Source: Candidatus Marinarcus aquaticus
GTDB taxonomy: Bacteria > Campylobacterota > Campylobacteria > Campylobacterales > Arcobacteraceae
Assembly (NCBI RefSeq): GCF_004116335.1
Contig: NZ_PDKN01000008.1
Span: forward strand, 1-64,000
DNA: 64,000 nucleotides
Reading direction: 5' to 3'
The translations under genes and the position numbers were made by a program. Numbering within the stretch: position 1 is the stretch's first letter; each line of letters opens with the position of its first letter. Shown one piece after another: positions 18,563-29,272 of the stretch. The notes under the pieces are model-generated. The model saw nothing but the letters and a program-made list of their open reading frames with translations. It had not been told where the DNA came from and did no database searches.

Positions 18563-18653
18563 GGATAGATGGGTGAGTTGGCTGAAACCACATCCCTGCT
18601 AAGGATGCGTACTGGTAACGGTACCGAGGGTTCGAATCCCTCTCTGTCCGCCA
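18563..18653 (+). tRNA. tRNA-Ser (GCT)
   Basis: 91 bases with the long variable arm of a class II tRNA (ACTGGTAACGGTACC region). The acceptor GGATAGA pairs with TCTGTCC (one G-T pair), the T loop is GGTTCGAATCC and CCA is encoded. The anticodon loop CTGCTAA gives anticodon GCT, reading AGC/AGU serine codons. Confidence 0.96.
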
Positions 18654-18665
18654 TTTGTTTATTAT

Positions 18666-18742
18666 GGGTCATTAGCTCAGCTGGTTAGAGCACTCGGCTC
18701 ATAACCGAGTGGTCGAAGGTTCGAGTCCTTCATGACCCACCA
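18666..18742 (+). tRNA. tRNA with CAT anticodon (Ile2 or elongator Met)
   Basis: 77 bases; acceptor GGGTCAT pairs with ATGACCC, D arm AGCTCAGCTGGTTAGAGC, T arm AGGTTCGAGTCCT, encoded CCA. The anticodon loop is CTCATAA. The anticodon stem GGCTCATAACC resembles tRNA-Ile2, in which TilS converts C34 to lysidine, more than elongator Met, but the identity needs comparison with the other CAT tRNAs of the genome. It marks the left edge of the disturbed AT-rich region. Confidence 0.93.
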
Positions 18743-18826: not shown

Positions 18827-21517
18827 TCATAACAGATTAATCAAACATTTTTTTAATCTTTTTTCTTCTTTACTATCATTAGTTTTAAACCTCATAATAG
18901 CTATCTCACTTTTATTTAGAATAGAGTCTTTTACTCTATCTCTTTCTAATTGTTCAGGATTATTTTCATGATATGCATACCCATCAACTTCTACAGCTAA
19001 TACAGTACTATTATTAATTTTGTTATATATCAGAAAATCAATATGAGATTCAGGATGAAGAACAAATTTTTGTTCTCTTTCAGTCAGTATACTTAAATCC
19101 CTAATTAATCTATTTAATGGCATATGAATAACTCTACCTAAGTGAGAGAATATATCCTCACTTAATATTTGTTCAATAACAATATTCATTAAATTTTCTG
19201 ATTTATGCTTGCTCAAACTTTTATATTTTGTTAAATATTTTTTTAAGTATGGGGAATAACTTTGATATAATAAATCAAAAATTGAATATACCTTACTTTC
19301 TTTTATCTCTAAGTTGTTATATTTAATATAATTTACTAAATCTTTCATATTTTTATTTTTCTCTCTATCAGAAACAACAACAAAAAGTTTATCAACTGCT
19401 CTTGAAATTGCGACATTTAGAAGATTTTCATTATCAACAAAGTCATTTTCTTTGTCTACAACAGTTGATAAAATCATTATATTTTTTTCTCTGCCTTGAT
19501 ATTTATGAACTGTATCTATAACAATCTCTTCATCATTTTCAAATAAATTATTTAATTTAGAAACTTGTTTTCTAAAAGGTGATGCAATCCCTATATTTAT
19601 TTTGTCTATGTTCGGTAATATCTCTTTTTCAATCACATCTATTTGCCGTTGATTATATGTTCCTCTTGCATGATTACCTTCTACAGTTTTATATAAAGTA
19701 AGAGGTATATCTTCATCATTTTGTTTTGTTAGAACTATTAACTCATTATTATAAAACTTTTTATTACAAAACCCTATAATTCTGGGATGACACCTATAAT
19801 GTTCTTTTAACAATGTTTTAGGAATATCTTTATAAATTTTAGAAATAGAAGATAATAAACTTTCTTCATAATTATAAGGATTGCTAACTTTGTAGTTATT
19901 ATATATATTATTAACGATTTCTTTTGTCTCATCTTTTATTACATGAGGTAATTGCTTTAAATCTCCAACAACTACAACATTTTTTGCACAAGACAATGCT
20001 AATGAACCAGCTACAATAGCTACTTGTGAAGCTTCATCAATAATCAAATAATCATACAATTTCCCATTGGCTATACAGTTTCTTAAAGAGTGCGTTGTAC
20101 TTAAAACTACAGGATATTCTTCAATAAAGTTATCAAACTTATCACTTTTCCATAAAATATCATCATCAAAGCTATCTCTTTGGGTTTTAAAACCATATTT
20201 ATTTGATAAAAAAGCTTTAAATAAAAGCATTGATTTTTCGCTAAATAGTTTCATACTATTATCAAAATCAAAGTCTTTTAAAGTATCTTCTAGTTTTTTT
20301 ATCTGTTTTAATACCTCTTTTTCTTTTTGTATATAAAAATACTTTTGTAAAAGTAAAATAATAGAATCTATAGAGTTCTTATATAGTGAAAATAAAAGAA
20401 TTCGATATTTTATTAAAATTTTAAATTTAAATAAAAATGATATTTTCTTATTTAATTTTTGTCTTTTCTCAAAATCAGCCCACAACGATAATATATTCTC
20501 TGTATTAAATCTATTAAATTTATGATAACTATCTATTTTATCTTCTCTTTTTTCATATAGATCCAAAAAATGGTTTTTTTCTACTTTAAGTTCCATTTGA
20601 AGCTGTTTTAATTTTGATAGTTCATTATTTTGTTCTAACATCACTTTTAAAGATTCTATATCATCAACTATTGTTTCTGTAAAATTATTTAAATCTATAT
20701 CTTTTTTGTTTTTTATAAACTCTGGATATTTTGTGTTTTGATTTGAGAAAAATTCCTCTTTATTATCTTTATTCCCTAAAAAAGCAGAGATAAAAGATAA
20801 ATCATATTTTTCTAATTTTTCAAATACATTTTTTGTAGCGGCATTATTATTCGATACTATTGCTATAGTTTTATTTCTCATAATAAGATTTGCAATAATA
20901 TTAAGAATGGTTTGAGTTTTACCTGTTCCAGGGGGACCTTCTATCACACTAATTTGATTTAACAAAGCTTTTTGAACAGCCTTTTCTTGACTTAGATTAA
21001 AACCAAAAGGAAATATTATACTTTCTTTGTTTTCATTAGTATCTATTTCTGAAGCATTTAGATATTTTGATAAAACACTTTTTTCACTAATAAATGTCAT
21101 TTTATCATAGCTATTAAATAAAAAATCATTTTCTTCATCAACACTTTTTGATAATTCTTTTAAATATTCTAAAATATTTTTTGAATTTTTATTTGTCAAA
21201 CAATTTTTTTCAAAAGTTAAACGAGAAGATTTATAAATATTTTTTCTTCCATTTTCATAAAAAATCCTAAAATATAGTTTGAAACTTTGAATTTTAATTA
21301 TATTTGAAAGAAGTTTCCCATCTAAATACAATATATAATCAGAGGGATCTAATTCTTCTAGTAATTCAAGTTGTACTACTCTGTGTTTTTTATATTTATA
21401 AACTGTATCATTAGTTATAAACTTGATATTCGCATAATCACTTTGAAAATCTAGTTGCTCTATATCTTCTGTTTTATCTTTATTATCTATAATTATTAAA
21501 TATTTATTTTTATCCAT
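18827..21517 (-). CDS. UPF1-like SF1 helicase with C-terminal PD-(D/E)XK-type nuclease domain
   Basis: 896 residues. The helicase core has Walker A EGPPGTGKTQT (about 193-203), DEAS box YLIIDEASQVA (about 490-500), VVVVGDLKQLP (about 514-524), motif V VIDTVHKYQGRE and motif VI LNVAISRAVDKLFVVVSDR. A lysine-rich, predicted helical insert (about 285-445) separates motifs I and II. The last 75 residues (HIDFLIYNK, LAVEVDGYAYH, ERDRVKD) match the REase_MTES_1575/DUF559-like nuclease fold with acidic residues near Asp827, Glu843 and Asp845. Such helicase-nuclease proteins are frequent in phage-defence regions. It follows the tRNA genes on the opposite strand and is clearly more AT-rich than the core genes, which suggests transfer. 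Substrate is unknown. Confidence 0.82.
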   Translation of the reverse strand: MDKNKYLIIIDNKDKTEDIEQLDFQSDYANIKFITNDTVYKYKKHRVVQLELLEELDPSDYILYLDGKLLSNIIKIQSFKLYFRIFYENGRKNIYKSSRLTFEKNCLTNKNSKNILEYLKELSKSVDEENDFLFNSYDKMTFISEKSVLSKYLNASEIDTNENKESIIFPFGFNLSQEKAVQKALLNQISVIEGPPGTGKTQTILNIIANLIMRNKTIAIVSNNNAATKNVFEKLEKYDLSFISAFLGNKDNKEEFFSNQNTKYPEFIKNKKDIDLNNFTETIVDDIESLKVMLEQNNELSKLKQLQMELKVEKNHFLDLYEKREDKIDSYHKFNRFNTENILSLWADFEKRQKLNKKISFLFKFKILIKYRILLFSLYKNSIDSIILLLQKYFYIQKEKEVLKQIKKLEDTLKDFDFDNSMKLFSEKSMLLFKAFLSNKYGFKTQRDSFDDDILWKSDKFDNFIEEYPVVLSTTHSLRNCIANGKLYDYLIIDEASQVAIVAGSLALSCAKNVVVVGDLKQLPHVIKDETKEIVNNIYNNYKVSNPYNYEESLLSSISKIYKDIPKTLLKEHYRCHPRIIGFCNKKFYNNELIVLTKQNDEDIPLTLYKTVEGNHARGTYNQRQIDVIEKEILPNIDKINIGIASPFRKQVSKLNNLFENDEEIVIDTVHKYQGREKNIMILSTVVDKENDFVDNENLLNVAISRAVDKLFVVVSDREKNKNMKDLVNYIKYNNLEIKESKVYSIFDLLYQSYSPYLKKYLTKYKSLSKHKSENLMNIVIEQILSEDIFSHLGRVIHMPLNRLIRDLSILTEREQKFVLHPESHIDFLIYNKINNSTVLAVEVDGYAYHENNPEQLERDRVKDSILNKSEIAIMRFKTNDSKEEKRLKKCLINLL

Positions 21518-21558: not shown

Positions 21559-21681
21559 CTATTTAAATATAATTTGTGCTTGTTCATCTGGTGGTGTTAG
21601 TACACTTGGCTTGTATTTTTTAAGCCAAAGTGCTTTGGGGCATTGGATGCCTCTTGTGTAGAGGGATTTAGATAGGTTCAT
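21559..21681 (-). pseudogene. N-terminal remnant of a DUF2779 protein gene
   Basis: A 40-codon open frame, starting ATG at 21681 with AAAGG upstream, encodes MNLSKSLYTRGIQCPKALWL and continues KKYKPSVLTPPDEQAQ before a stop. This is the characteristic N-terminus of DUF2779 proteins (Cas4-like nuclease relatives of several hundred residues), in which the LSKSxYxxGxQCPKxLWL block opens the protein. Everything after residue 40 is missing. It lies between the helicase gene and the receiver gene and marks a recombination or deletion scar. The family call is from memory of this signature. Confidence 0.68.
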
Positions 21682-21749: not shown

Positions 21750-22631
21750 TTATTTCAAATATTGTTTTGCCCAAATTAATAACTCAAGTAAATTATAAAT
21801 TAATGATTTTAAAGCATAACTACTTATCATATAACTTCCCGCAGGAGTAGTATGTATATATTGTCCGCAAGACCAATATAATGAATCTGAAAAATTAAAA
21901 ATTGTTTGATTTTTATATGCTGAATTATCTGGAATACGTTGTTTCACACAATTTGTTTCTGATGATTTACCTATAAGATGCTTCATTAATTTATTCCAAT
22001 CTATCATACCATTAGGTTTGAACATAATATCAGGAACAATTGTTTTATTTTTTTGATTTATTTTTTTATATATAGCTTCTTGCATAGACCGTACATCACT
22101 CAATATTCCCTTAAATTTAGATGAGTCTTTTTCATTTAAATTTTTTAAAATATTCAACATTTGTATCTCTTGGGTACTATCCATTAAGTTTTGCTCAAAA
22201 ATTTCAAAAATATCTTGATAATCTCTTTTAATTCTCAAATTTTCTGAATTATCACAATACCATTTAATTCTTGTAAATAAATCATCCTCTTGTCCTTTTA
22301 AAAAAACTTCTTCATGTTTATAAAATCGTTGAAATCCAGTAAATGATTCATCATCTCCAGTTAAAATTATTCTTGGAAATTTTGGATAATTTTGGTCTAG
22401 ATAAGTTATCGCTGTTCCTATAAAATCTTCATTCTCTACTTCTTGATTATCATTAATTAAACATTTTATATCCAATATTACAACTGCAATTTTATGATAA
22501 AGTTTTGGCATTTCTTTTTTAAGCCCCTCAAAACTTCTTGCCGCAGCTACATTTATACTTTTAGCATTCATTTTTGTAAGAAATGCATCTACAAATTCTT
22601 TTTGATCATCTATTATTAATATATTATTCAT
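21750..22631 (-). CDS. Receiver-domain protein with unknown helical output region
   Basis: 293 residues. The first 120 form an intact two-component receiver: acidic pocket IIDDQ (Asp8, Asp9), phospho-acceptor Asp54 in VVILDIK, Thr91 in IILTGDD and Lys112 in VFLKGQ. Residues about 125-293 are predicted mostly helical and match no output domain that I recognise; there is no winged helix, GGDEF, HNH or nuclease motif. The ATG overlaps the stop of the methylase/kinase fusion by one base (TAATG), so the two are translationally coupled and the kinase is the obvious phospho-donor. A short C-terminal hydrophobic segment (LKSLIYNLLELLIWA) is present. Confidence 0.8.
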   Translation of the reverse strand: MNNILIIDDQKEFVDAFLTKMNAKSINVAAARSFEGLKKEMPKLYHKIAVVILDIKCLINDNQEVENEDFIGTAITYLDQNYPKFPRIILTGDDESFTGFQRFYKHEEVFLKGQEDDLFTRIKWYCDNSENLRIKRDYQDIFEIFEQNLMDSTQEIQMLNILKNLNEKDSSKFKGILSDVRSMQEAIYKKINQKNKTIVPDIMFKPNGMIDWNKLMKHLIGKSSETNCVKQRIPDNSAYKNQTIFNFSDSLYWSCGQYIHTTPAGSYMISSYALKSLIYNLLELLIWAKQYLK

Positions 22632-25474
22632 TATATTTCTCCATTATGTTTTAGTGGGATTTCAACTTTAAATTTAAATCCTGTATCATTTTTTGTATCA
22701 ATAAACAAGTCTCCATTATGGGCTTTAATAATTCTATAAATAAAATTGCCGCCTATACCTGAGCCATCACTCGATTGTCCTTTTTTAAACGCTCCTATAT
22801 AATCTTCCTTGGAAACATTAAATTTTTGACCATTATTAAAATATTCAATAGTTACTATTTCTTTTGATTTATTTTCTCTTATATTAAAATCAATTTTATA
22901 ATCATTATTACTATCTTTAAAAGCATGTTTTCTAGCATTTGAAATTAGTTGGTCTAATAACTCAACAAATGAAGCTTTATTAAAATCAACATAAACACTT
23001 TTCCCTTTTACATTAATAGTAAAGTTATTCCCATTTTCTGTTTTTTTTGATTCTATATATTTGGTAAAAAAATCGTATAAGTCAACATTTTCAAAATCAT
23101 TATTATCAAGTTTAAAACGCATTACTTTATCTACTATATTTAAACTATCATGTAATTTTTTTGAATTTGCTTTAATTTTGTTACTAATTTCATCAAGAGT
23201 ATAATCTATTGGTCTTGCAAAATCAGTGTCTTCTGGAATAATCAAATTTTTATTTTTTAAACTTCCTACATCTTGTGAATCCATAATAGTTTTTAAAATA
23301 TCAACATCCATATTTATTGTAGATAATATAGCTCTTAATTGATGAGTTAAAGTTCTAACAATATCACTTTCTTTTGATTCAACTTCTTCTTTGTATCCAA
23401 TGAGTTTTAATTTTGTTTCAAATTCAGCTCTTTGTAAAGCTATAATATTTGCTTTTTGTGTATCAATAAAGTTTGTTTGCTCTTCTAATTCTACATAAGG
23501 AATTACAAGTTCTGATATACTTGATATTGTTAAAAAAGTTCTAATAGAACCCGATGTTAAATTTTTTATTTGTTCTGTGACAATTTTTGAATACATTTGG
23601 TAATATAAATATTCTATTGAAACCGTATCATCTTTTGGTACCAAGGCTATTATATTAGTTGTAATAAAAATATTTGGTAGTTTGCTAGTTGGTCGATATA
23701 TTGTCGGTTTTATTTGTTCACCAACAGAAGCTATTAGAATACATTCTTCACAAATCACATCTCTACTGGAAACATCTTGTAACATATCGAAAGTATCATT
23801 TTTATTTATATAGAAATCCAATACATCATTATGTAAATTTTGAATTTTCACAATAGGAAATTCACCTTGGTTAGAAAGCTTATATTTATTAAAATTTTTA
23901 CCTTTTTTTATTACAGCCAAATCTTTTAGATATTTAGCTTTCCCGTCTTCTAAAGCATGGTGTAATTCAAAAATTTCTTTTTGAAATATATTTGAATCTA
24001 ATCTATAATCTTTTTTTGAAATTTTCTCTATATCTATAAAAAATGAATCTTTTGTTTCATCATAGTAAGAATCCATTATGGTATCAATATCTAAAATGCT
24101 TTCATTGACAATTTCTCTATTTCTAGTCTTAGCTTCATACAGTAATTGAGCATTTATTATTTTGATTTTATTTTTTTCATTCTTATTAAAATTTATAAGT
24201 AGTAGTGATGTATTAATCCCAGAATGATACATTGTTCCAGAAGGTAGATTTACAATAGCTTCAATTAAATCATTTTCAATTAAATATTTTCTTACTTTTA
24301 TATAATCTGTAGAGGTATAAAAAAGAAATCCTGTTGGAACATTAAATATAGCTTTTCCACTACTGTTAATTTTTGATAATGTATATATCATGTAATAAAG
24401 TATTGATTCTTTAGATTTGATATTGCCTATTGGATTATTAAATTTAATATTGTTAACACTACTAGAATATGATTCATTTTGTGTAAATTTTCTAGCAAGT
24501 GGCAATTCTGTAATCAAATAATCATACTTTTGATTATCTTGATATGAGAGAAAAGAATCTTCATGATTAAATTTTATATTAAAGTGTCCATACATATAAA
24601 TAGACATAAAACCAAGTTGAAGAGTTCTCTTATTTATTTCACTATACTCAAGATTAATATTTGAATTATTTAGGATAGATTCAATTACTAAACCACCCAA
24701 TCCACCAAAAGGATTTAAGACAGTTGAATTATCACCTAACTCAAAAAATTTTAACATTAGCTGTTGCATAGATTTGTTAGTAAAATTGTGTTCTATGTCT
24801 TTATCGATTAAATATTCATAAATTTTACCAAATTCAACTTGGTTATATTTTGTAGTGTCTAATTGTTCCAACATATAAAATATTTCTTCAAGTATTTCAA
24901 TCTTAAAATTTTGAATATAATTAATAAAATCATCTACTAAATTAATTTCAAAATTATAATAGTTGTGAAATTGTTTTATATTTTCTATTAATACATTTTT
25001 TCTATCTATCTCCAACATAAAAGTAGTTAATTTTATATCATCTAATTGACGATTTTCATATTCGTTAAGTCTTTTATAAAAAAATAAAAAACTAACTATA
25101 TATTGAATATCCGATTTATTAAAATAAGGGCTTAACAGATTTTTTATATAATCATGATACTTTTTAATCTTTTGGAATACTTCTTCTTTAGTATCAATAA
25201 TAAGTCCATCAATATAATAAAAATTGCTAGGATATTTTAATATTTCTAAAAGTATTTTGTTTGTCTCGATATTTGGATTATGATATTTGTAATTATTTAA
25301 CTCTTCTTTTAAAGTTTTAATATTAATAAATCCATCACTTTGTTCCAAAATATTTTGTATTCTACTATATAAAGTGGTACGATGTATTTCTCTTCCTTCT
25401 TCTACATGTTTAACAGCATCTTCCATGTTGAATCCTTCATCCATCATCATAGAAACTTCTTTCATAAATCCCAT
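22631..25474 (-). CDS. HsdM-like methylase fold / HsdS-like TRD / histidine kinase fusion
   Basis: 947 residues. Residues 35-95 look like a winged helix; 100-245 are helical as in the HsdM N-terminal domain; 250-450 carry an N6-adenine methylase fold with motif I VLNPFGGLGGLVIES (252-266) and the HsdM-like block FNVPTGFLFYTSTDYIKVRK (377-396) and NLPSGTMYHSGI. The expected catalytic NPPF/Y motif is replaced by TELPLA (322-327), so DNA methylation may be lost. Residues 515-690 match one HsdS target-recognition half with its conserved coiled segment. Residues 700-945 form a histidine kinase: H-box THQLRA with His711, N-box LISNARKHAF with Asn846, G1 as NNG (880-882) and G2 GSGIGGNF (904-911). 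GGAGG precedes the ATG. The next gene is a receiver protein. I know of no named system with this layout. Confidence 0.8.
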   Translation of the reverse strand: MGFMKEVSMMMDEGFNMEDAVKHVEEGREIHRTTLYSRIQNILEQSDGFINIKTLKEELNNYKYHNPNIETNKILLEILKYPSNFYYIDGLIIDTKEEVFQKIKKYHDYIKNLLSPYFNKSDIQYIVSFLFFYKRLNEYENRQLDDIKLTTFMLEIDRKNVLIENIKQFHNYYNFEINLVDDFINYIQNFKIEILEEIFYMLEQLDTTKYNQVEFGKIYEYLIDKDIEHNFTNKSMQQLMLKFFELGDNSTVLNPFGGLGGLVIESILNNSNINLEYSEINKRTLQLGFMSIYMYGHFNIKFNHEDSFLSYQDNQKYDYLITELPLARKFTQNESYSSSVNNIKFNNPIGNIKSKESILYYMIYTLSKINSSGKAIFNVPTGFLFYTSTDYIKVRKYLIENDLIEAIVNLPSGTMYHSGINTSLLLINFNKNEKNKIKIINAQLLYEAKTRNREIVNESILDIDTIMDSYYDETKDSFFIDIEKISKKDYRLDSNIFQKEIFELHHALEDGKAKYLKDLAVIKKGKNFNKYKLSNQGEFPIVKIQNLHNDVLDFYINKNDTFDMLQDVSSRDVICEECILIASVGEQIKPTIYRPTSKLPNIFITTNIIALVPKDDTVSIEYLYYQMYSKIVTEQIKNLTSGSIRTFLTISSISELVIPYVELEEQTNFIDTQKANIIALQRAEFETKLKLIGYKEEVESKESDIVRTLTHQLRAILSTINMDVDILKTIMDSQDVGSLKNKNLIIPEDTDFARPIDYTLDEISNKIKANSKKLHDSLNIVDKVMRFKLDNNDFENVDLYDFFTKYIESKKTENGNNFTINVKGKSVYVDFNKASFVELLDQLISNARKHAFKDSNNDYKIDFNIRENKSKEIVTIEYFNNGQKFNVSKEDYIGAFKKGQSSDGSGIGGNFIYRIIKAHNGDLFIDTKNDTGFKFKVEIPLKHNGEI

Positions 25475-25634: not shown

Positions 25635-28600
25635 TTATTTAAAAATAAATGTATTCAATTCCAAACCACTCGTCCCATCACCCTTAGGCTCTATCTTTAT
25701 CTGCAATGGAATTCTTTCTTTTAGTGCTTCCACATGGGAAATCACGCCTACCATCTTTCCTGAACTTTGCAGTTGATTTAGTGCATTTAGTGCTAGTTCT
25801 AGACTATCGCTATCTAGTGTTCCAAACCCTTCATCTAGAAAAAGTGAGTCTATACTTATCTTTTGGCTTGCTAGGCTTGATAGTCCTAAGGCTAAAGATA
25901 GACTTACTATAAAGCTTTCTCCCCCTGAGAGAGTGTTTACACCTCTTACTGCGTCTCCTTGGAAGCCGTCAATTATCTCTATATCTAAGAGTTTGTTTGA
26001 TTCTGTGTTTCTTTGGAGTTCATATCTTGGGCTAAGTATTTCTAGGTGTTTGTTTGCTAGGTAGATTAGCTGGTCTAGGGTGATACCTTGGGCAAACTTA
26101 GCAAACTTGTCCCCTTGGCTTGAGCCTATCATATCATTTAGTTTTACCCATACTTGAAAGGCTTGTTTTTTCTTTTCAAGTTGTTTGATTTTATCTTCTG
26201 ATTTTTTTATATTTTGGGTATTTATTTCTAACTCTTTTGAGATGCTTCCTATGGTTTCTTGTAGTTGGTCTATCGTGCTTTGTAGGTTTTGTAACTCTTT
26301 GTTTATATCATCTTGTAGGGTTTATCTCTTTTTCTAAGAGTTTGTGTTCCTTTAGTTTTTTATTTGTGTCTGTTTTTAGAGTTTGTATTTGTGTGTATTT
26401 CTCTTCTATAGTTTTGCATAGATTTGTTAGGGTTTCAAACTCTTCTTTTGGTAAATTTGCTTTTTCAAACTCCTCTTGTGAGTTGAAGCCATACTCTACT
26501 AAAGCTTTCTCAAACTTCTCTTTTATGAGTTGTAAGTTTTGTTTGTCATCTTCTTGTTTTTTATTTAGTTGAACTATCTGTTTTGATAGGGATTCATCTT
26601 TTGATTTTAGGCTTGAAAGATGGTTTTGCAAACTGTTATAATGTTTTGAAACAGTGTCTAAACTCTCTTGGATATTTTTCTCAAAAAGGTCTAAATCTTC
26701 TATATCTAAGATATTTTTGCTTTGGGTTTCAAGCTTTGTTATCTCTTCTTTTAGTGTTGATTGTTCCTCTTTTAATTCTTTTATAGTGTTTATGCTTGTG
26801 TTTATCTGTTGTTGTTTTTGCAGCTCTTTATTTAAAGATATTTGTAGAGACTCTTTTTTTACTTGTAAAGACTCTTTTTGCTCTCGTAAGTTTACATACT
26901 CTTTTAGCTCGTTTTCGCAAAATTGTATTTGCTCTTGTAGTGTGGCTTTTGAGTCTTCTTGCAGTTTGAAATCACTTGTTTTAAAGTACTCTTCTATTTG
27001 CTCTTTTGTAGTTTGTTGTTTTTGTATTTCTAGGTTTGAGCTTTCAAGTTTTGAGCTAAGTTTGGCTAGGTTTATTTGAGCGTTGTTTAGTTCACTGTTT
27101 TGCGCTTGTAGATAGATTTCTTGCTCTTTTATTTTAGCTAGTGTTTGACTTATCTCTGTATCTATATTTAAAGAGTAATTTATATATGGATGTTCTTTTG
27201 AACCACATAAAAAGCACTCTTGCCCATCTTTTAGTTTAGCTCTATCTTGCTCGTAGTTTTTGATAAGAAGCTCTTTTTCTCTTGTTTGTTTTAGTGAGTT
27301 TAGAGTTTCGTTTATTTGCTTAATTAGTTTTGTTTTTTCTTCGTTTAGTTTTGTTTGTGATTCTATTTGAGCGTTGTACTCTTTTATCTTGTTTTGCTCT
27401 TGTGTGATTTGCTCTTGTAGTGTTTCATAATCACTTAGGGCTTTTAGAAGTGTTTCTATCTCTTTTAGTTTGGCTCTTGTATTTTGCTCTTTTTGGTTTA
27501 TATCTTTTGTTTGGGTTTCTAGTGTTTTATATTGTTCTACTAAAGTTTCTAACTGCTCTTTTTTTGTGTCTAGATTTGATGAAAAGTTTTTGTATAGATT
27601 GTCTATTTGTGTTTCGTCATTTAAAAGTGTTTCAAATGCTATCTCAAAATGTTTTACTAACTCTTGTAAGTGTTGTGATATTTTTTTACTTTTTTCTACA
27701 TATAAAGAGTTCTTACCATCACTTTGTGTTTTTATAGTTCTTAATTCTTTTAGTTTTTTATAGTTTTCATTGTATGTAGTTTGCTCTTTTGTTTGGATTT
27801 GTTCTTTTAACTCTTTATCCTCTTTTTGCAAAGATTCTAAGCTTTGTTTATCATTTGTGATTGTGTTTGTTAGTTGGTTTTTCTCTTGGTTCAAAGCTTG
27901 TATTCTTATGGCTTTGTTTGCTAGTTCAAGCTTTGAAAACTGTTCTTTGTTGTCCTCTTTTTCTTTGCTTATTTGCTCAAACTCTTGGTTGTATTTTTGA
28001 CTATCTACTTCTAGTTTACTTAGAGTTTCTAGGTAGTTTGATAGTTTTTTTAGTTCGGTTTCTTTTTTATCTAATTCTTGTTTTTCTTTTTTATTTGTTT
28101 CTAGTTGTTTTGTTTTCTCTTCTACTATGTTTGGCTCTAGTAGTTCTATACTTCCTAGTGCTATCTCATCGGCTTCTATCTCTTTTTTCTTTGACGAGTA
28201 TGTTTCATAGATACTTTGTGAGATCTGTTTGTAGATATATGTTCCAGTAATCTTTTCTAGTAGGTTTGAACGCTCGTTTTCTTTGGCTTTTAAAAAGGCA
28301 TCAAAACTTCCTTGGGCTAACATCATAGATTGAACAAACCTACCAAAATCAAGCCCTGAGATTTCCTCAACTACTTTTGGTACTTTTGAAAGATATGATT
28401 CTAGTATTTTGTTAGAATCTAATTCTACTATCTCCATCTTAGCAGATTGGAAGTTTCCATTTGGATTTTTTCTAGCTCTTTTTTGCGCCCAAGAACTTCT
28501 ATAGACTTTGCCTTTGATTTCAAACTCCACTTCACATAAACACTCGCCTGTGTGTCTACTCATCAAGTCATTTGGGTTTGTTAATCTGGCTGTTCTTCCA

Positions 28601-28761
28601 TATAAGGCACAAGTAATTACATCTAGGATTGTACTTTTCCCTGCTCCTGTTGGTCCTGTTATGGCAAAAAGAGATTCATCATGCAAAAACTCTTGGAAGT
28701 CTATGCTAAACTCACCTTTTAGGGAGTTTATATTTTGTAGTCTTACTTTTAGTATCTTCAT
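25635..28761 (-). pseudogene. sbcC: sbcC, SMC-like nuclease subunit, frameshifted
   Basis: The first 817 codons (from 28761) encode an SbcC protein: Walker A ITGPTGAGKSTILDVI near residues 33-48, the Q-loop region, two long coiled coils and a zinc-hook CFLCGSKEHP (CxxC) in the middle. The frame then stops after EKEINPTR at 26308. Translation resumes in another frame (LQDDINKELQNLQ) and runs to 25635 with signature LSGGESFIVSLSLALGLSSL, Walker B SLFLDEGFGTLD and the H-loop. One extra base near 26315-26322 (in AACCCTACA) explains the break. With sbcD also broken, this is probably a decayed gene, though a sequencing error cannot be excluded for this single-base change. Confidence 0.85.
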
Positions 28762-29272
28762 TAGACCTGCTCACTTTTTGGCTCTTCATGAAGATTTGAG
28801 ACTACTTCATTAAAAGTTTGTGATAACTGCTCTTTAAACTCACTGTTTTCTATCTCTTCTAAGTCTAATCTTTTTTCAAAAACCTCTTGAACACTTAGTT
28901 CATCTAAACTTATAGCTTTTAACTCTTTTGCTCTTAGTTGCTTTTCACTTTTTTCTATTTTAACTGCTAGGATTGTTAGCTCAAGTTTTGTGGCTAATTC
29001 TCTTATCTCTGTATTTGCAAACATTGGGTTGTCATCTTTGTATTTAAACTATTTACTTGTGATAGTTGTTTCAAAAAGTTATAATATATTTCAAGTGCAT
29101 AGTTTGGTGGAGTTCCTGTATCAAAGATATCTCCTGATACAAGTAATACGTCTATATTATTTTCTTTTATTGTTTCTAAAAGCCAAGATAAAAAAGCTTC
29201 ATGCTCTTCAATTCTGCTTTTTCCCATAAAGTTTTGACCTAAGTGCCAGTCAGAAGTGTGTAAAAATTTCAA
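28761..29272 (-). pseudogene. sbcD: sbcD, exonuclease subunit, internal deletion and frameshift
   Basis: The N-terminal 80 codons carry the Mre11-type phosphoesterase start (HTSDWHLGQ, VLLVSGDIFDTG). After NSLNTK the frame shifts and is followed at once by what looks like the SbcD C-terminus (NPMFANTEIRELATKL to SEQV). About 200 codons including the GNHD and later histidine motifs are missing compared with the usual length near 380-400 residues, so the metal site cannot form. The remnant C-terminal frame ends at the sbcC start codon, as in an intact sbcDC operon. The deletion is too large to be a read error. Confidence 0.85.

Follow-up and report, generated by a model that had tools for sequence, protein, structure and literature searches.

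The window, a 64,000-nucleotide stretch of the Candidatus Marinarcus aquaticus genome, contains a gene that joins a pseudo-methylase, a target-recognition domain (TRD) and a histidine kinase in a single protein of 947 residues, here called MSHK. A preliminary description of this DNA had reported one reading frame across 22631..25474; the frame exists and lies on the minus strand (25474 to 22631), as do all features below unless another strand is given. Pfam assigned N6_Mtase, Methylase_S and HATPase_c in this order, all above their gathering scores. The HsdM-like N6_Mtase domain covers residues 215-498 (23981..24832; 1.5e-27). It is followed by a single TRD at residues 514-674 (23453..23935), matching Methylase_S at 4e-7 and, in a scan of the window's own genome, at 2.4e-8. 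The kinase part begins with a helical linker and DHp region (23105..23452) that carries the phospho-acceptor His711 (codon 23344-23342). It was located by matching a family profile to HK853, since Pfam made no HisKA call on the window protein alone. The HATPase_c domain (residues 837-942; 22649..22966; 1.3e-7) contains N846 and the GSGIGG motif at 904-909. At the N-terminus, residues 33-95 (25190..25378) align with a HARE-HTH winged helix found in close homologues. This domain is too diverged for Pfam in the window protein and was detected at the N-terminus of three relatives (L095, at 1.3e-8, L094 and L073).

The proposed layout of an HsdM-like domain, one HsdS-like TRD and a kinase was borne out both by these Pfam assignments and by matches to solved structures. 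A profile of the 21-member family matched the HsdM of EcoR124 (9.4e-58), HsdS structures (5ybb_D and 3okg, about 1.5e-14) and HK853 (2c2a, 7.9e-15), the last match covering both DHp and catalytic domain. The HK853 match starts at profile position 592 and the HsdS match ends at 594, so that the HsdS-like helix runs straight into the dimerisation helices of the kinase, a connection that may transmit the signal.

The stop of MSHK overlaps, at base 22631, the start of a gene for a 293-residue response regulator (21750..22631). Its receiver domain (22248..22631) has D9, D54 (codon 22472-22470), T91 and K112, with D54 as the phospho-acceptor; the domain is diverged in the window protein, and the family profile matched receiver structures in the PDB at 5e-6. 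The C-terminal helical output domain (21753..22238) retains conserved R181, E185 and H260. Its resemblance to DUF4145/HEPN is faint, with a profile match (hhalign E 0.03) that brings the R, E and H into register, and a single-sequence AlphaFold model of the regulator gave no usable fold (pLDDT 41).

Beyond the regulator lies a gene for an 896-residue protein (18827..21517) with an SF1 helicase (residues 173-716) and a C-terminal DUF2726/MTES_1575 nuclease of the PD-(D/E)XK type (residues 823-891), both assigned by Pfam. By adjacency, this helicase-nuclease may be the effector in the window genome; the link is weak, because the two are separated by a 232-nt gap that contains a decayed DUF2779-like gene. 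That remnant, 40 residues long (21559..21681), resembled the N-terminus of a DUF2779 nuclease in a by-eye comparison with the L074 gene, and had no Pfam match on its own. In L074, a full DUF2779 gene stands directly upstream of the fusion gene.

These genes lie in an island with a GC content of about 24% over 20-26 kb, against 30-39% around it. The island starts just past pyrF and the genes for tRNA-Ser and tRNA-Met (18563..18742, plus strand), which mark an insertion hotspot. In three related genomes (L112-L114), the DNA beyond pyrF is unrelated to that of the window and its content is different in each, which indicates a variable insertion spot. No duplicated tRNA end that could serve as an attachment site was found within the window. 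Beside the island, sbcC-sbcD (25635-29272) is damaged: the sbcC frame is shifted near 26308-26132, and most of the middle of sbcD is missing. This sbcC is the only copy found in the window genome.

Distribution of the fusion and its pairing with a response regulator

A profile built from two regulators, those of the window and of a Myroides plasmid, was searched in 396 Bacteroidota genomes and gave 12 matches, 11 of which have the fusion gene directly upstream. A further 301 genomes of one order added eight regulator matches, all with the fusion. Overall, we recovered 20 homologues with the same architecture (19 Bacteroidota genomes and the Myroides plasmid), giving 21 loci with the window. 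Plasmid scans returned Myroides as the only member. Elsewhere the searches came back empty: across the window's phylum (397 genomes) the matches listed for a profile included no other full-length fusion, 250 genomes from the phylum of Natroniella held no member, and single-protein or small-alignment scans of genome contigs, viral contigs and phages found none. A second scan of the genome contigs returned plain HsdMs instead of fusion members. In the tree, the window copy is nested in a clade (7 rows, 100/100 support) whose other members are all Bacteroidota. As no second copy was listed for the genomes sampled from its own phylum, this position is simply explained by horizontal transfer.

The architecture is unusual and no close relative is listed in the window's own phylum sample, as might be expected of two unrelated genes joined by chance or by misassembly. 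This explanation can practically be discounted, since the same domain order occurs in 20 further homologues, in 19 other genomes and on a complete plasmid. In the Myroides plasmid protein, moreover, a single BLASTP alignment spans the methylase through the kinase (E=1e-22), and the regulator gene then follows.

The pairing is obligate among these members: a response regulator adjoins the fusion in 21/21 loci, at a gap of -38 to +21 nt, in line with the earlier suggestion that the kinase acts on a partner through a phospho-relay. The residues on which such a relay depends are intact. His711, Asn846 and GSGIGG lie where they had been placed, and H711, N846, G882, G906 and G908 of the H-, N- and G-boxes are kept in all 21 kinases. 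Similarly, every receiver has an acidic pair (Asp-Asp or Glu-Asp), the Asp, a Thr/Ser and the Lys. Evolutionary distances of kinase and receiver correlate across the family (Spearman 0.53, 0/2000 permutations). Judged by residues and pairing, the two-component nature of the pair is thus well supported. The spacing between Q666 and H711 is constant within clades only, and a heptad rule for it across the whole family was rejected.

The output side varies among the members. Pfam found no HTH or other DNA-binding output in the regulators. Two regulators, on one tree branch (L081 and L099), have a Schlafen AlbA_2 domain as output, and nine longer ones (372-396 aa) are extended at the C-terminus; in at least one of these, Pfam gave OB/CSD-type matches. 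The family's output domain also occurs in a regulator of L079 (7259-10474), paired with a kinase that lacks the methylase head and whose histidine kinase part matches the family (3e-27); this pair sits among the genes of a type III CRISPR operon, which encodes Cas10, Cas6 and a CARF protein.

Loss of methylase motifs and conservation of the TRD

The M domain of MSHK is judged catalytically dead by its motifs. Active HsdMs have NPP[YFW] at motif IV, where the window protein reads ELPL (residues 323-326; 24497..24508), and MSHK thus falls outside the pattern of motif I plus motif IV by which HsdM is recognised. In 0/21 members are both motifs canonical; L082 and L096 have a canonical motif IV and neither has a canonical motif I. 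As a control, ten true HsdMs from the same neighbourhoods were inspected, and motif IV was present in 10/10 and the motif I pattern in nine. The preliminary description had suggested that binding to a DNA sequence or its methylation state controls phosphorylation; given the loss of catalytic motifs, a reading of methylation state finds no support. One could still suppose that the protein methylates DNA and that its kinase signals how far modification has gone. The window clade does keep the glycines of motif I (NPFGGLGG, DPVAGxGG), so SAM binding is possible, but with ELPL at motif IV and the two motifs never canonical together, we consider this very improbable. One group of "N-6 DNA methylase" annotations finds its explanation in this family; the proteins concerned are probably not methylases.

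The TRD has been retained in a different way. Among genuine restriction systems at these loci, conservation is lower in HsdS than in HsdM, with normalised scores in a mean ratio of 0.65. The fusion shows the opposite, its TRD exceeding its methylase domain in these scores (ratio 1.79). Plain identity hardly differs between the TRD (25.6%), the methylase domain (24.1%) and the ATPase domain (25.4%). The idea that the TRD copies the specificity of the cognate HsdS was rejected, as it shows no resemblance to those of the HsdS encoded alongside. A conserved TRD that is unlike its neighbours argues against sensing of methylation at the site of the local restriction system. An unvarying ligand fits better, whether DNA of any kind, a structure or a protein. 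The claim that MSHK reads a locally tuned DNA sequence hence found no support, and sequence-specific reading of foreign DNA is doubtful, since the TRD neither diversifies nor matches the cognate HsdS. By homology of the M domain, the TRD and HARE-HTH, MSHK probably binds DNA.

A protein ligand is the core of another explanation, in which the head is a decoy. Phage anti-restriction proteins of the Ocr/ArdA type mimic DNA, and Ocr binds the M.S complex of Type I enzymes. A dead M-TRD head could bait such mimics, and their capture would start the phosphorelay and an abortive response. The loss of catalysis with the M-TRD shape kept, a TRD that is conserved and not diversifying, adjacent restriction systems and the Schlafen outputs would all fit. 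However, a decoy has no obvious use in the McrBC-linked relative, and HARE-HTH plus TRD equally fit plain DNA binding; we regard this explanation as unlikely.

Restriction neighbourhoods and a proposed alarm

A survey of gene neighbours, proposed in the preliminary description, revealed mostly restriction genes beside the pairs of the relatives. Of the 21 loci, 11 have HsdM and HsdS beside the pair, against a rough base rate of about 0.4% per 20 kb by our own estimate from about 100 TRD matches in 61 genomes. Another locus (L080) has HsdM together with HsdR. HsdR is present in ten loci (10/20 relatives). A frequent order is kinase-regulator-M-S-(GmrSD)-R, for example in L074, L078 and L083, and L095 has R-M-S-kinase-regulator. 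Other loci place the pair next to McrB/McrC (L081), NACHT (L073), nSTAND (L100), an OLD-like ATPase and a UvrD helicase (L084), or an AAA ATPase and a SIR2-like protein (L094). A WYL regulator occurs in 9/21 loci. Near the window copy, neither HsdM/S/R nor WYL was found.

Embedding in Type I operons, together with the WYL regulators, could also mean that the pair senses M.S occupancy of DNA and adjusts how much of the linked restriction system is made, and is no switch for defence. Restriction systems need timing control, which adds to the appeal of this idea. Yet the regulators have no HTH or other Pfam DNA-binding output, two members have Schlafen AlbA_2 instead, and some loci are without Type I genes. 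We therefore consider a role in expression control unlikely.

The reading we prefer, with roughly even confidence, is a soluble two-component alarm in which a sensor derived from a restriction enzyme feeds a relay that controls a restriction-type effector. The sensor head would be a Type I M-TRD half-complex that has lost methylation and probably still grips DNA, with an N-terminal HARE-HTH-like winged helix added in the window clade. Dimerisation of the kinase would set two M-TRD heads side by side, as in an M2S complex, and the helix after the TRD would lead directly into the DHp bundle. Binding of the ligand, which we infer to be either DNA that is foreign or abnormal or something resembling M.S, would alter this bundle. 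H711 would then be autophosphorylated and the phosphate passed to D54 of the co-encoded regulator, whose helical domain most likely activates or licenses a restriction-type effector; control of an effector is suggested by the gene neighbourhoods. Candidate effectors are the HsdR of Type I systems in many relatives, McrBC in a single one and perhaps the SF1 helicase-nuclease in the window genome. In two relatives a Schlafen domain takes the place of the helical domain, and in others an OB-fold-like tail is added to it.

A broader proposal is held more tentatively, at somewhat less than even confidence. The MSHK pairs may represent an as yet unnamed family of immune signalling systems, in which the dead methylase-TRD head of Type I origin senses nucleic acids or DNA mimics and feeds a His-Asp phosphorelay. 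The relay would license interchangeable effectors (Type I HsdR, McrBC, Schlafen, helicase-PD-(D/E)XK), and the same regulator module would serve in type III CRISPR under another sensor. Taken together, the fusion and its matching regulator, often in restriction operons, suggest a largely undescribed DNA-sensing alarm wired to immunity.

Comparison with known systems

The fusion was not named by any of the libraries used (Pfam, PADLOC and NCBIfam), and the earlier statement that it belongs to no named system holds in that no match to one was found. The pair resembles HK853-RR468-type two-component systems in its DHp and HATPase domains with H/N/G boxes, its receiver D/D/T/K and its adjacent, co-oriented genes; it departs from them in a sensor made of a dead HsdM fold and a TRD, and in an output without a recognisable DNA-binding domain. 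With Type I restriction-modification (HsdM/HsdS/HsdR) it shares the M and TRD domains, and many homologues sit in Type I operons. MSHK, however, has one TRD (one Methylase_S stretch) instead of two and an added kinase and has lost the canonical methylase motifs, and no HsdR translocase lies near the window copy. The TRD also matches MAD5 of the methylation-associated defence system, MADS (mad5, 3.4e-14 in PADLOC and 1.2e-11 in NCBIfam), but at 44 bits against a cut-off of 400, and no MADS gene set surrounds MSHK. Other mad matches of PADLOC are generic SMC-like or helicase hits.

Two further defence systems combine comparable parts. Detocs is a phage-defence system built on two-component signalling; MSHK differs from it in its methylase-TRD head, and PADLOC, whose library may predate Detocs, gave no DtcA/DtcB/DtcC match. 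The kinase of Pgl is a Ser/Thr kinase and a separate protein. Judging by a title cited in PMC12707154, Pgl, or Type 2 BREX, defends against phages with both a methylase and a protein kinase. None of the window neighbours tested had a Pfam match to PglX, PglZ or BrxC/PglY-like proteins. The legend of Fig. 6F in the DefensePredictor paper (PMC13092281) mentions HATPase and receiver domains for systems that are predicted but unvalidated, and by this legend one of them could overlap the MSHK pair. A full-text search, with most subscription papers and preprints outside its coverage, found no published description of the fusion architecture.

What is new here is thus an unprecedented restriction-derived sensor on an otherwise standard two-component pair. 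In the usual view, restriction enzymes work on DNA autonomously; with a conserved kinase-regulator pair carrying a dead methylase head, mostly beside restriction genes, restriction could come under His-Asp signalling. With the MSHK family, the reuse of restriction parts as a sensor can be tested directly. On the Myroides plasmid pFM-G13 (L021), the fusion is annotated "N-6 DNA methylase" and its regulator "hypothetical protein", and the pair is flanked by a WYL regulator and by HsdM/HsdS with a PLD-domain protein.
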